DNA of 17,456 nucleotides from an uncultured Prevotella sp. (GTDB taxonomy: Bacteria; Bacteroidota; Bacteroidia; Bacteroidales; Bacteroidaceae), in the NCBI GenBank assembly GCA_937906765.1, contig CALCUV010000003.1, positions 1-17,456 of the forward strand, written 5' to 3'. The translations under genes and the position numbers were made by a program. Positions 1 through 10,392 of this stretch are shown piece after piece. Every line of letters starts with the position of its first letter. Position 1 is the first letter of the stretch. Below the pieces are notes generated by a model. The model did not search any database. It saw only the letters and a program-made list of their open reading frames with translations, and was not told the DNA's origin.

Positions 1-710
1 TAAACAATGTTGTTTTATATCATGAGATAGGACATTTTGTTGATGTCGTCAATGGAATATCAATTTACTCATTAAATAATATGAAGAAAAAGTTTAGCAG
101 GAGTGAAGATATTCCAAATATGCAGACTTTTTTCCCTTATCTTAATGGCTTAACATTTAATCAGGTTATAGATGCAAATGGTAATTTCTTAGATAAATCT
201 ATCGAGAAGGCTCTTTATTATCATTGGATGGAGTTTTTTGCGGATATGTTTGCATGTAGTTATATTGGTAAAAATATCACCAAATATCTTGGATATGTAT
301 ATTATCCAGATTGTCGTTCCAGTAATTATTCAATAACTCACCCATCCAACGATTTACGCTTTAAACTTGCTGAGGATTTTCTATCATCAAATAGAAACTA
401 CATTTTGGATATAATACAAAATGAATTGCGCGGAAAATTTGGCAAAGTAATGAACGACTTTACAAACGACCTTGATAGTTCTGATTTGTACAGATTGCTT
501 CCGATTGAAATAAATTCTGACAATGAAATACACAAACTATATGCAACCGCCTGGGATGTCTGGTATAGCGATAGAGATCTTTTCAAAACGGCGAACAATT
601 TATCATATACTCTTGAAGCAACGCAAATTTATACGATAATTAATAATCTTATTGAAAAGTCTATAAGTAATTATTTAATTCAAAAAAAGTGGAGTAATGT
701 ACCTGAATAA
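1..710 (+). CDS. Zinc-metalloprotease-like protein, 5' end outside the window
   Basis: The frame stays open to the left edge (first whole codon at 3), so the ATG at 81 is probably internal and the gene begins outside the window. The first visible residues include HEIGH (bases 21-35), which fits the HExxH zinc motif of gluzincin-type peptidases. About 70 residues later (bases 231-260) comes EFFADMFA, which resembles the helix that supplies the third zinc ligand (E..AD.FA) in M48/M78/ImmA-like families. There are no long hydrophobic segments, so it is probably cytoplasmic. The stop overlaps the start of the next gene by 14 bases, so the two are likely translated together. AT-rich composition and the neighbours suggest an accessory, possibly defence-related gene. 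The motifs are seen directly; the metalloprotease role is inferred, and the subfamily cannot be named without the N-terminus. Confidence 0.72.
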   Translation, partial: NNVVLYHEIGHFVDVVNGISIYSLNNMKKKFSRSEDIPNMQTFFPYLNGLTFNQVIDANGNFLDKSIEKALYYHWMEFFADMFACSYIGKNITKYLGYVYYPDCRSSNYSITHPSNDLRFKLAEDFLSSNRNYILDIIQNELRGKFGKVMNDFTNDLDSSDLYRLLPIEINSDNEIHKLYATAWDVWYSDRDLFKTANNLSYTLEATQIYTIINNLIEKSISNYLIQKKWSNVPE

Positions 711-1296
711 GAATGAAATAAATAAAGCTTTAGTAGAAAAGCAACTACATATTAGACCGCTCTTAGATCCAAATCAGGTTACCAATATTTCTGTTGATTT
801 AAGATTAGGTTGTGACTTTCTTGTGTCAATAAAATGTCGCGATCCTTTTATCGATGCGACAAGAGAACATGATGCATATGAAAATGTTTACAAATTTTAT
901 CAAGAAACAAGACGACAGATAGGGGAAACGTTTTTTCTTCATCCTAATCAAACCATTATGGCTTCTACCCTTGAATATATTAAATTACCCAAAGACCTAA
1001 TGGCTACTATTGATGTTAGAAGTTCGTATGCTCGTTTAGGACTAACCATGAATTCTTTTCTGGAGCCAGGTTATTGCGGTTGTATTTCTGTAGTATTAAC
1101 CAACACAAGTATGAACCCTATAAAACTTGCTGTTGGGGCTAGAATATTTACTATAAAATTTTCCAAGGTAAGCGATGACACTCCATCATACTTTAGTACT
1201 AATAGGAAATACATGTGTCAAGTACGCCCCGTTATGTCTAATATATCTGACGATAAAGACCTAAATATATTGGAAAGCATCCGAAAAGGGCTTTAG
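697..1296 (+). CDS. dCTP deaminase/dUTPase-fold protein, catalytically divergent
   Basis: This 199-residue protein matches the dCTP deaminase family in length and layout: NISVDLRLG at 30-38, FFLHPNQ at 79-85, the signature RSSYARLG at 108-115, then LEPGYCG and ISVVLTN at 122-136. The serine and arginine of the active-site loop (S109, R113) are kept. The glutamate that activates water in dCTP deaminases (E138 in the E. coli enzyme, in VLEFYN) is V133 here. The usual ID of IDPG is LE, and about three residues of the H-T-A loop before it are missing. It may therefore bind nucleotides without deaminating dCTP, or use another chemistry. GGAG lies three bases before the ATG, inside the upstream gene, and the 14-base overlap implies coupling. 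Related deaminases are known antiphage proteins, so a defence role is plausible but inferred. Confidence 0.85.
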   Translation: MYLNKNEINKALVEKQLHIRPLLDPNQVTNISVDLRLGCDFLVSIKCRDPFIDATREHDAYENVYKFYQETRRQIGETFFLHPNQTIMASTLEYIKLPKDLMATIDVRSSYARLGLTMNSFLEPGYCGCISVVLTNTSMNPIKLAVGARIFTIKFSKVSDDTPSYFSTNRKYMCQVRPVMSNISDDKDLNILESIRKGL

Positions 1297-1496: not shown

Positions 1497-2372
1497 ATGT
1501 CAAAAATATCCATTCGATTTTATAATGACCGGGAGGTGCGAGCTGTTTGGGATGAGGAGAATTCCAAGTGGTGGTTTTCTGTACTCGATATCGTAGGGGT
1601 GCTGAACAACCAAGACGACTACCAGAAAAACCGCAACTACTGGAAATATCTCAAAACAAAGCTCAAAGGCGAGAATAGCGAAGTGGTTAGTGGCACTAAC
1701 CAGTTGAAATTACTTGCGCCCGATGGCAAGCGACGACTCGCGGATGTTCTCGACTACGATGGCGTTCTGCTCCTCGCAAAGAGTTTTCCCAACGCCCGTG
1801 CGATGCGTTTTGTCGAGTGGTTTACCAATAGCGACGAGACTATTGACGGCAAGAGCAAGTCGAAAGCATATGCTCTTTTCGAGAGCAGTCTAATAGACAA
1901 TATCGAGGTTGGTACGGTCAAAGGCTTACAACAGATCCACGCATACTTGTTTGGTGGTTTGTATGATTTTGCAGGGCAAATTCGCACGGTAAATATCGCC
2001 AAGGGAGGTTGCCAGTTTGCGATGGCGCAATTTCTTCCGCAGACGCTTGCTACAATCGAGCAGATGCCCGAAACAACTTTCGAAGAAATTGCCGACAAAT
2101 ATGCTGAGTTGAATATTGCTCATCCGTTCCGAGAGGGCAATGGTCGTGCGACTCGTATATGGCTCGATCTGATTCTCAAAAAGCAGTTGCAACAATGCGT
2201 TGATTGGAGTAAGATTGACAAGAACGACTACTTGAATGCGATGCAAAAGAGCGTAGTTAATTCGTCAGAGATTAAGCAACTTTTGCAGTCTGCTTTGACC
2301 AACAAAATCAACGACCGTGAGACCTTTATGAAAGGTATAGACTACTCATATTACTATGAGCAGGAGGAATAA
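1497..2372 (+). CDS. BRO-N domain-Fic domain fusion (putative AMPylase toxin)
   Basis: Residues about 4-110 read as a BRO-N domain, known from phage-type anti-repressors and DNA-binding proteins ([13 protein letters not shown] near the start, [13 protein letters not shown] near its end). A short lysine/serine linker follows. Residues about 125-235 are a Fic domain with the complete catalytic motif [12 protein letters not shown] at 209-220 (H209 the catalytic histidine) and the substrate-docking hairpin around TVNIAKGG at 164-171. Fic proteins usually transfer AMP from ATP to a target hydroxyl, and many act as toxins. I see no convincing [ST]xxxE[GN] self-inhibitory helix, so an antitoxin might be separate, lost or carried elsewhere. 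Composition is closer to the core genes than the two genes upstream. Fic activity is well supported; the target and toxin status are inferred. Confidence 0.92.
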
Positions 2373-5641: not shown

Positions 5642-5767
5642 GATTGAATTGCAAAAGGATTAGACAGAAGCGCTACAAAGTTAGACATAATTGCAATAAA
5701 GTGAGATAGAATTGCTACAGTTTGAGACATAGGGACAGATGTTTCAGATAAGATAACCGATGGTTTA
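5642..5767. repeat. Degenerate 21-bp tandem array, six units
   Basis: Six units begin at 5642, 5663, 5684, 5705, 5726 and 5747, each exactly 21 bases and starting GA[CT] or GAT. The approximate form is GAyAnAATTGCnAnAnnnTnA, with strong divergence between units. The array ends where an octamer element begins (5768), which keeps the same 21-bp phase. The rhodanese promoter box lies in the second unit. Positions were checked base by base; the origin is unknown. Confidence 0.75.
5676..5683 (-). promoter_or_regulatory. Possible -7 box for the rhodanese gene
   Basis: On the minus strand this reads TAACTTTG, a full match to TAnnTTTG, about 75 bases upstream of the chosen rhodanese start. No good TTTG element was found at the expected distance. 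It lies inside the 21-bp array. Confidence 0.45.
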
Positions 5768-5833
5768 GACATAAGTACAAAAGTGCATAAGGAATGGTTA
5801 ACGAATAATCTTTTGTTCTTTTGTCCTTCTGTC
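5768..5833. repeat. 66-bp octamer element, copy 1
   Basis: Left arm: three octamers GACATAAG, TACAAAAG, TGCATAAG (5768-5791). Spacer: 18 bases (5792-5809). Right arm: CTTTTGTT, CTTTTGTC, CTTCTGTC (5810-5833), the approximate inverse complement of the left. The same 24-18-24 layout occurs at 7812 and 7896. Confidence 0.8.
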
Positions 5834-6170
5834 AGAATTTCGTTTGAATGCGGACGCACGGGCCGTGCGTCCCTACTTTTCAATGGTTAATTCCTTCTGT
5901 TTCTTCTGTTCTTTTGTCTAAAAAAGATTGGCAGTATTTTGTTCTTCTGTACTTCTGTCAAAATTTCGTTTGAATGCGGACGCACGGGTCGTGCGTCCCT
6001 ACTTTTCAATCGTAAAATCCTTCTGTTTCTTTTGTTCTTTTGTCTAAAAAAGATTGGCAGTATTTTGTTCTTTTGTACTTCTGTCAGAATTTCGTTTGAA
6101 TGCGGACGCACGGGCCGTGCGTCCCTACTTGTCAATGGTTAATCTCTTCTGTTTCTTTTGTTCTTTTGTC
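5810..6170. repeat. 126-bp tandem repeat with palindromes, three units
   Basis: Three units are in exact 126-bp register: a 21-base palindrome (GGACGCACGG...CGTGCGTCC) lies at 5852-5872, 5978-5998 and 6104-6124. Each is preceded by CTTCTGTC and TTTCGTTTGAATGC, and followed by CCCTACTT and pyrimidine-rich octamers of the CTTTTGT type. Two units share GATTGGCAGTATTTTG. The array fills the gap between the rhodanese and AlkD-like genes and ends about 17 bases before the AlkD-like stop. As 126 is 42 codons, the minus strand stays open and shows a 42-residue repeat, which I do not regard as a protein. Confidence 0.9.
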
Positions 6171-6187
6171 TGAAACAGAAAACATTG

Positions 6188-7000
6188 TTATATCGCTGTC
6201 ACACTTCGCGTTCGGAAGGATTCGCGGGCCTTACGGACGTAAAGTTTGATGACGTCTTCGGGGAGGGGTGTGGCACGCACGAAGGCGCGGGTGAGGTCGG
6301 GGAATTTGGCAAGGGCAGTGGCGAGACACCAGGCTACTGCCATGCGCACGTAATAGGGTTGTGGTCCTTGCGCTGTGCCTTGTTGGGCAACTTTAGGCTT
6401 ACCTTTTACGTATTGATACTCGGAAAAGATTTTCTCAAAGCGGAGCGCTTCAAACTGCTCAAAGATGCGGGGCAACCATTCCTCGGTCAGGAAATAGGTC
6501 ATGGCAACGACGATGGCGAAGCGCACTTCAAATTCGCGCGTGGAGCGGAAATAGGGTTGCAGAAATGCCCAAAGTTCGTGCTTATCTGCCTTGCCCATCC
6601 ACTTGGCATGGGCACAATAAGAATCGCATACCGCCCAGTTGTCAATCACAGGGATGTAGCGCCCCAAAAGTGAGCATCGTTCGGAGAAATTACACTTTTC
6701 GTGGTTTATCAAATACCCCCAGATGACCACTTCTTCGTGACAGAGCGAATTGTTAGCCACTTGCTCAAAACAATGTATCACTTCCTTACCATTCTTACAG
6801 ACTCTGTGCCGACCATTAGGCATTTCCACTTCGCACCCTGCCACAGAAAGCGTCCTTGCCGTAAGTTTCAGTTCCGGACTATGGAGTCCCAACACAGGGC
6901 GTGAGGGTAGGGCATTCACAACCCTCAAATGCCCCTCGCGATAGCGCGAATCGGTGAGGAATCGATGACTTATGAGTGGAGTTAAAACGGAGCGTATCAT
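6188..7000 (-). CDS. DNA alkylation repair protein, AlkD-like glycosylase
   Basis: AlkD-family proteins are built of HEAT-like repeats and excise alkylated bases such as N3- and N7-alkylpurines. From the ATG at 7000 the protein has 270 residues. A GTG at 7072 would add 24 residues with no family resemblance, so I prefer 7000, where the family's opening pattern (SRYREGH...RPVLGLHSPEL) begins soon after. IDNWAVCDSY gives W122 and D126, matching the tryptophan and catalytic aspartate of Bacillus AlkD (W109, D113). The arginine in EVRFA (R160) and the tryptophan in AVAWCL (W224) match R148 and W187. A basic, glutamine-rich stretch of about 17 residues (198-215) before the last helices may be an insertion. 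Family is clear; substrate range is inferred. Confidence 0.88.
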   Translation of the reverse strand: MIRSVLTPLISHRFLTDSRYREGHLRVVNALPSRPVLGLHSPELKLTARTLSVAGCEVEMPNGRHRVCKNGKEVIHCFEQVANNSLCHEEVVIWGYLINHEKCNFSERCSLLGRYIPVIDNWAVCDSYCAHAKWMGKADKHELWAFLQPYFRSTREFEVRFAIVVAMTYFLTEEWLPRIFEQFEALRFEKIFSEYQYVKGKPKVAQQGTAQGPQPYYVRMAVAWCLATALAKFPDLTRAFVRATPLPEDVIKLYVRKARESFRTRSVTAI

Positions 7001-9966: not shown

Positions 9967-9985
9967 AAGATTTTTCTTGGGTTTG

Positions 9986-10156
9986 GACACAAGAACATAA
10001 GTTTTAGACACAAGAACATAATAAGGAAAGATGCTTTTGGGGGTTTTGGACATAAGGACATAAGTACAAAAGGTGCTTTTTGGGGGGGTAGACACAAGTA
10101 CATAAGAACATAAGATGCTTTTGGGAGTTTTGGACATAAGAACATAAGTACAAAAA
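9986..10156. repeat. 42-bp tandem array of octamer triplets and 18-base spacers
   Basis: Triplets of octamers of the form GACATAAG/AACATAAG/TACAAAAG start at 10007, 10049, 10091 and 10133, each exactly 42 bases after the last. Three spacers between them, at 10031, 10073 and 10115, are 18 bases each and read roughly ATGCTTTTGGG.GTTTTG. A shorter pair sits at 9986-10001. This repeats the 24+18 layout of the 66-bp elements, here head to tail. The spacer at 10073 includes a run of seven G. Confidence 0.87.
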
Positions 10157-10340
10157 ATGTAGAACTTCTGTTCTTTTGTTCTTCTGTCAAGAACTTTTGC
10201 CCTTTTGTCTGAATTGGACATAAGAACATAAGTACAAAAAATGTAGAACTTCTGTTCTTTTGCTCTTCTGTCAAGAACTTTTGCTCTTCTGTCAAGAACT
10301 TTTGCCCTTCAGTCAAAAACTTCAGTTCTTCTGTCAAAAC
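10133..10340. repeat. 84-bp direct repeat merging into a 21-bp tandem
   Basis: Bases 10131-10183 recur almost identically at 10215-10267, 84 bases apart. From 10257 the sequence is a 21-base tandem made of two CTTNTGNN-type octamers and an AAGAA/AAAAA pentamer: units at 10257, 10278, 10299 and 10320. The arms before 10160 and after 10165 are approximate inverse complements around an 8-base spacer. The array ends about 50 bases before the helicase start codon. Confidence 0.87.
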
Positions 10341-10392
10341 CATTTACTCTTCTGTCTAACCCTCTGGTCCTTCGGCCAAAGAAACGTGTGCT

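Follow-up and report, generated by a model that had tools for sequence, protein, structure and literature searches.

We identified a protein with the fold of dCTP deaminases (Dcd) that lacks the catalytic glutamate of these enzymes in a stretch of 17,456 nucleotides from an uncultured Prevotella species (contig CALCUV010000003.1; hereafter the window). Its gene, here called C, adjoins the 3' part of a gene for a predicted zinc metallopeptidase (B), and relatives of both occur elsewhere as the last two genes of a three-gene cassette, A-B-C. We put at roughly one half the probability that C, as the last gene of a mobile cassette, encodes a nucleotide-binding subunit that controls B in defence. 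The case is carried by the valine that takes the place of the glutamate (V133), by a natural fusion of B and C, and by the motifs of B. As judged from sequence, C appears to be a DCD-family pseudoenzyme within a probably defensive protease cassette of which we found no published description. The points of most interest are the B gene at positions 1 to 710, the conserved cassette and the loss of a second residue, Gln152, all of which had been overlooked by a first-pass annotation of the window.

Loss of the catalytic glutamate in one clade

The C gene (positions 697 to 1296, forward strand, as are all features of B and C given below) encodes 199 amino acids and belongs to the Dcd family by fold and family profile. 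It matches Pfam DCD at 6.3e-28 and NCBIfam dCTP_deam (TIGR02274) at 138.4 bits, above the curated cut-off of 92.8; Pfam dUTPase also matches, with 26.1 bits against a cut-off of 22. The residues that the first-pass annotation had singled out are where it placed them. The RSSYARLG motif occupies residues 108–115 (1018 to 1041), with S109 at 1021–1023 and R113 at 1033–1035, and the position of the catalytic glutamate is taken by V133 (codon GTA, 1093–1095) within ISVVLTN (residues 130–136, 1084–1104). A phmmer comparison with PDB sequences and our alignments put V133 in the column of E. coli Dcd E138, where the chains of that enzyme carry Glu (1xs1), Ala (1xs4) or Asp (2v9x); the PDB titles give 1xs4 as E138A and 2v9x as E138D, and name H121A and E145A/Q as further variants studied. 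The 'ID' of the IDPG motif reads LE (E123, 1063–1065). The H-T-A loop, described as about three residues short, is so relative to E. coli Dcd, but against the proteins of Priestia and R. phaseoli the difference is only two residues. T152 (1150–1152) stands in a column that is Gln in most Glu-bearing relatives and in dUTPases, and KYMCQVRP (1207–1230), a C-terminal motif of the family, replaces the NQQGAVAS tail of Dcd. The structure alignment of C was made without P0035 and P0048.

Searching some 5.8 billion proteins, we found 249 homologues, the best 120 of which (window included) were aligned. At column 133, 49 of these have Val and the other 71 have Glu, with no third residue. The Val rows are exactly the window protein and the 48 relatives with at least 72% identity to it, and the Glu rows lie at 48–58% identity. 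The earlier claim that the glutamate has been lost, which Glu in homologues would speak against, therefore stands for the clade, since all 48 close relatives have Val, and does not extend to the 71 more distant rows. We built a tree from 95 rows, of which 11 represented the Val clade across its span, 71 were Glu rows and 13 were others, with column 133 kept in. In it the Val rows form a single clade with support of 100/99, nested within the larger Glu set and implying one change of state; the stem of this clade has a length of 0.76 changes per column. The placement of some outgroup and distant rows, whose branches are very long, is unsure. Sequencing error or a pseudogene could be ruled out, given Val in all 49 close rows, an open frame and a conserved core. 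The alignments support a protein that has retained its fold and lost its catalytic glutamate, a state conserved in close homologues.

The remainder of the protein is well conserved. We defined 46 core columns by a uniformity of 95% or more across 76 non-Val members. In the 49 Val rows, 41 of these columns persist at a level of 90% or above; the five that do not are G47 (replaced by Cys), L88 (Met in most rows), L114 (still present in 39 rows), E133 and Q152. Among the columns kept are R108, S109 (48/49), S110, R113 (49/49), Y126, N136, Y165 and K171, which we take to line the nucleotide site in Dcd. In addition, 25 signature columns (at least 90% one residue in Val rows and at most 15% in Glu rows) mark the clade, including 47, 80, 106, 118, 119, 133, 139 and the inserted P163. 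Judged from its protein sequences, the Val clade looks retuned rather than decayed.

Other catalytic positions define what is particular to this clade. Column 123 is Glu in 65, Gln in 53 and His in two of the 120 aligned homologues, and never Asp; plasmid-borne relatives and a Bacteroidetes metagenome-assembled genome (L002) have Gln or Glu there, and two distant sets His or Gln. Asp is present in all seven dUTPases compared (six from Bacteroidota genomes, one from E. coli) and in six of seven DCD rows without B (E. coli, Azospirillum, Salinibaculum, Priestia, Streptomyces and genome G018). However, a Thermomicrobium DCD (L029:2001-2516), with no HExxH neighbour by annotation, has Gln at 123 and Glu at 133, and because this protein without B also lacks the Asp, its loss is a weak criterion for Dcd and a poor mark of the cassette. 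Gln occupies column 152 in 70 of the 71 Glu rows and in 7/7 dUTPases; the residue there is Thr or Ser in 49/49 Val rows and Ala in the Dcd of E. coli and of Azospirillum. A short loop and a missing Asp are found in Glu-bearing cassette members as well and are not confined to the Val clade; at catalytic positions the clade is set apart only by V133 and by the missing Gln152, a residue that E. coli Dcd also lacks.

The window protein has neither the catalytic Glu nor the IDPG Asp and full H-T-A loop of Dcd, and neither the motif 3 Asp nor the motif 4 Gln of dUTPases (E123, T152). The residues at columns 123, 133 and 152 therefore leave the Val clade without the deaminase Glu and without the dUTPase Asp and Gln. 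Because these are absent, C of this clade would be a pseudoenzyme that binds without converting. The first-pass annotation had also pointed to the nucleotide-depleting deaminases of phage defence; for this clade such a role is unsupported, because both catalytic sets are incomplete.

A three-gene cassette with a predicted metallopeptidase

B in the window (1 to 710) is truncated at the start of the contig and comprises the 3' part of an HExxH metallopeptidase-like gene, ending 14 bases into C. A full-length relative, P0246, has 388 amino acids and is 97% identical over the part present. The HEIGH zinc motif (21–35) has its H, E, G and H invariant in 130/130 rows of alignment A8, which also contains EFFAD (ExxxD, 231–245), probably the third zinc ligand and a stabilising Asp, and THPSN (an HP...R motif, 336–350). 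The gluzincin combination of HExxH and ExxxD is found in all 130 A8 rows and in 145 of the 146 listed B relatives, the sole relative without it being a 203-residue fragment; A8 omits by hand 17 of the 146, and 16 of those 17 carry the motifs. Two B proteins matched none of Pfam M48, M34 and M78 at E up to 1. Foldseek with B found nothing at E 0.001 or better in PDB or BFVD, a negative that carries no weight as to its fold, and superpositions of B on M48 and lethal-factor structures were weak only. One B relative, P0262, has a precomputed match to PF07737, which we take to be the lethal-factor family. Six further relatives (P0260 and P0263–P0267), 43–45% identical to window B and on contigs of up to 84,825 bases, have no C partner among the listed proteins.

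A, B and C stand in this order on one strand at twelve loci, with an A of 95–109 amino acids: in Dysgonomonas mossii (L001), the Bacteroidetes genome L002, an Emticicia plasmid (L006), an E. coli plasmid (L007), Rhizobium (L008), Bradyrhizobium (L009), Shinella (L011, a near copy of L008) and five Bacteroidota genomes (L031–L035). The start of C lies between -70 and +5 bases from the end of B over ten loci measured, with an overlap in eight of them. In one protein, P0199 (631 amino acids), B and C are naturally fused, with Glu in the C part. For the Val clade, B adjoins C in the window itself, and in 6 of 14 more distant Val clusters the longest contig is exactly equal in size to that of a B cluster (compared with 23 of 27 B clusters), which is indirect evidence of linkage. 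In seven cassette genomes the DCD model finds a single near-full-length match, the C of the cassette; a second match falls at the place of the dUTPase in six of the seven and, in G002, is a 157-residue frame.

The cassette is rare. The phylum yielded one clear member, the seed, in 395 sampled genomes, together with two weaker matches at 27–33%, one of which has the canonical Asp and Glu. The order of Dysgonomonas yielded three members in 393 sampled genomes at E 1e-25, and B was found in four of 395 genomes of the class, both counts including the seed. In E. coli it occurs in 8 of 5426 genomes, always on plasmids of 90–109 kb; the one examined, a P1-like phage-plasmid, carries genes for pacase, terminase, Phd-Doc and capsid. 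The L007 cassette is phage-plasmid cargo. At least 30 plasmid records matched, H4 and H6–H13 being near copies of L007 by identity. The P1-type B corresponds to PHROG 24479 (854 bits) and part of C to PHROG 23419 (193 bits). A viral-contig search with P0001 and P0246 returned no Val-clade DNA; the family alignment gave one P1-type copy and the genome-contig search two Glu-type loci. We rejected a housekeeping Dcd because the cassette is rare and tied to B.

Several candidates were set aside. The A'-B'-C' sets of Bradyrhizobium quebecense and Rhizobium phaseoli, which have HExxH, are likely distant kin only: in a two-sequence search the B profile reaches B' of R. phaseoli (20.6 bits) and hardly that of B. 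quebecense (6.2 bits), and their C proteins sit on long branches of unsure place. Genes for S8 and trypsin-like peptidases lie near these sets (L025:4712-8480, L024:1-1166). A Salmonella plasmid copy (L023, matches to B and C in unannotated DNA) is incomplete, and a Sinorhizobium plasmid copy (L030) has C in two pieces and only the last 24 residues of B; neither was counted. A tblastn search with two proteobacterial B proteins found no B near the DCD genes of Azospirillum (L010) or the weak matches L012 and L013, for which it covered about 3.5 kb. No HExxH is present in the two genes upstream of the Salinibaculum DCD gene (L026), and no B-like gene is annotated around those of Priestia, Streptomyces and Thermomicrobium.

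Neighbours were counted over 11 distinct loci (L011 omitted), for twenty neighbours picked by hand and without a background rate; on this footing, clear defence genes accompany the cassette at four. The Emticicia cassette sits within a type I restriction locus, that of L002 adjoins type I methylase and specificity genes, that of L031 adjoins AbiH, and that of L034 lies near BilA, BilB, BilD and an IrrE-like peptidase. Weaker matches occur at three loci, with a PtuA-like ATPase and an operon of multiubiquitin, ThiF and DUF6527 beside L008, a GajB-like helicase (a broad helicase match) near L009, and an RmrA-like protein near L035. L001, L032 and L033 show no defence match beyond a helix-turn-helix protein among the neighbours scanned. 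Ubiquitin-like operons are found near the cassette in two phyla (L034:10015-12844, BIL; L008:1941-4572, multiubiquitin/ThiF).

Directly downstream of C, the window encodes a Fic protein with a BRO-N-like N-terminus (1497–2372, forward strand) that matches the PADLOC candidate family PDC-S04 (547 bits) and is of the NmFic type. Another Fic gene immediately precedes the distant set of R. phaseoli (L025:1112-1780). Elsewhere in the window, two stretches about 4 kb apart (9972–10380 and 5660–5780) carry short repeats spaced start-to-start in multiples of 21 bases, with units including GGACATAAGAACATAAGT and CTTTTGCTCTTCTGTCAAGAA. At 5811–6188 a 126-base unit is present in three tandem copies, each with the near-palindromic GGACGCACGGGCCGTGCGTCC. 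An Rfam scan of the window at gathering scores gave no match.

Proposed function and competing explanations

The best reading of C, as the first-pass annotation had suggested, appears to be a nucleotide-binding sensor or regulator. The protein would form the usual DCD-type oligomer, bind a nucleotide or deoxynucleotide in the kept pocket, and contact B, holding or releasing it according to nucleotide state. B, as a predicted zinc metallopeptidase, would then cut A or a target in the cell, and this cleavage would defend the cell against invading DNA, from phage or otherwise. The catalytic Glu of C is kept in most lineages and has been dropped in this clade. A narrower form of the proposal, which we put forward tentatively as possible but rather less than probable, is a nucleotide-gated protease immunity: C would read a deoxynucleoside triphosphate (dNTP) pool disturbed by phage and switch on the gluzincin-type B to cut the A product or a host target, and the Val clade would be a natural case of separated functions, having lost deamination and kept sensing.

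A doubtful alternative, kept for the family as a whole because Glu is conserved in its other lineages, is that cassette C is generally a working dCTP deaminase which, once activated by B, deprives phage of dCTP, the Val clade being a weakened or decaying branch. Glu in 71 of the 120 rows (all those without Val) and in the aligned plasmid-borne members fits this, and an excerpt of PMC12409349 describes nucleotide-depleting defence enzymes. However, the Val clade spans identities down to 72% with 41 of the 46 core columns kept and the motif set of B intact, and the aligned cassette members lack the canonical Asp and the full loop. It is very improbable that the Val clade is instead a nucleotide hydrolase, dUTPase-like or other, using E123. 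We retain dUTPase-like chemistry as a rival because dUTPases have Ile (six) or Ser (one, E. coli), never Glu, at column 133 in the seven rows, and S109, R113 and Y126 are kept in C. Against it stand the replacement of Asp by Glu and of Gln152 by Thr or Ser, at positions invariant in the seven dUTPases, the absence from C of the glycine-rich tail of the aligned dUTPases, and the presence of a separate dUTPase in all six cassette genomes searched.

Carriage on P1-like phage-plasmids and large plasmids, a small first gene and the frequent B/C overlap would also suit an addiction or superinfection-exclusion module, with C an antitoxin-like inhibitor of B that senses no nucleotide. This explanation is improbable: it leaves the strong conservation of the nucleotide pocket unexplained, and the chromosomal copies at L032 and L033, with the neighbours described above, also weigh against it.

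If C is a nucleotide-binding regulator of B, a protease cassette found on plasmids, phage-plasmids and chromosomes of two phyla has taken over an enzyme from nucleotide metabolism as its ligand-binding subunit, and in one clade the catalytic function has proved dispensable. Such genes are annotated plainly as dcd in sequence records. B would represent a family of metallopeptidases that no Pfam model fits, situated beside BIL, AbiH and restriction genes. Whether DCD-fold proteins of mobile cassettes deplete nucleotides or sense them could be tested directly on this one.

Comparison with known systems

Among the matches listed from the open-licence literature there was no DCD-HExxH pair or cassette, which does not in itself show absence from print, and the PHROG entries 24479 and 23419 are listed with unknown function. 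The gluzincins (M48, such as Ste24 and BepA, and the lethal-factor-like M34), ImmA/IrrE and the CapP peptidases of defence loci are the nearest comparisons for B, although the two B proteins compared fit no M48, M34 or M78 profile. C resembles Dcd and the bifunctional DCD-DUT enzymes in its fold, RSS..R motif, the aromatic residue of the PGY/PGW loop and N136. In contrast to them, its clade lacks the catalytic Glu, its aligned relatives have Glu, Gln or His for the IDPG Asp, and it has a shorter loop, a QETRR insert, a CQVRP tail and a genetic partner in B.

The defence dCTP deaminases (DcdV/AvcD and the type of Tal 2022) share with C an annotated name and substrate and a defence setting. They are reportedly zinc-dependent proteins of the cytidine deaminase fold with a kinase-like domain, and are represented in PADLOC; C has the dUTPase/DCD fold and gave no match at E up to 1 to any family of PADLOC.

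Two further systems resemble the proposed mechanism in part, as described in excerpts of their sources. A staphylococcal phage dUTPase binds the repressor Stl in its apo form and dUTP blocks the binding, so that a trimeric protein of the dUTPase superfamily works through a partner in a nucleotide-blocked manner; however, that partner is a repressor, no metallopeptidase is involved in the excerpt, and Dut remains an enzyme, usually only Duts with normal enzymatic activity inducing the pathogenicity island SaPI (PMC5593958). Clover (CloA/CloB), which senses dTTP, resembles the proposed system as a defence that reads dNTP levels, but in the excerpt combines a dGTPase effector with a nucleotidyltransferase and no protease (PMC12265719). 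The dUTPase-Stl switch and Clover would be precedents for each half of the proposed mechanism.
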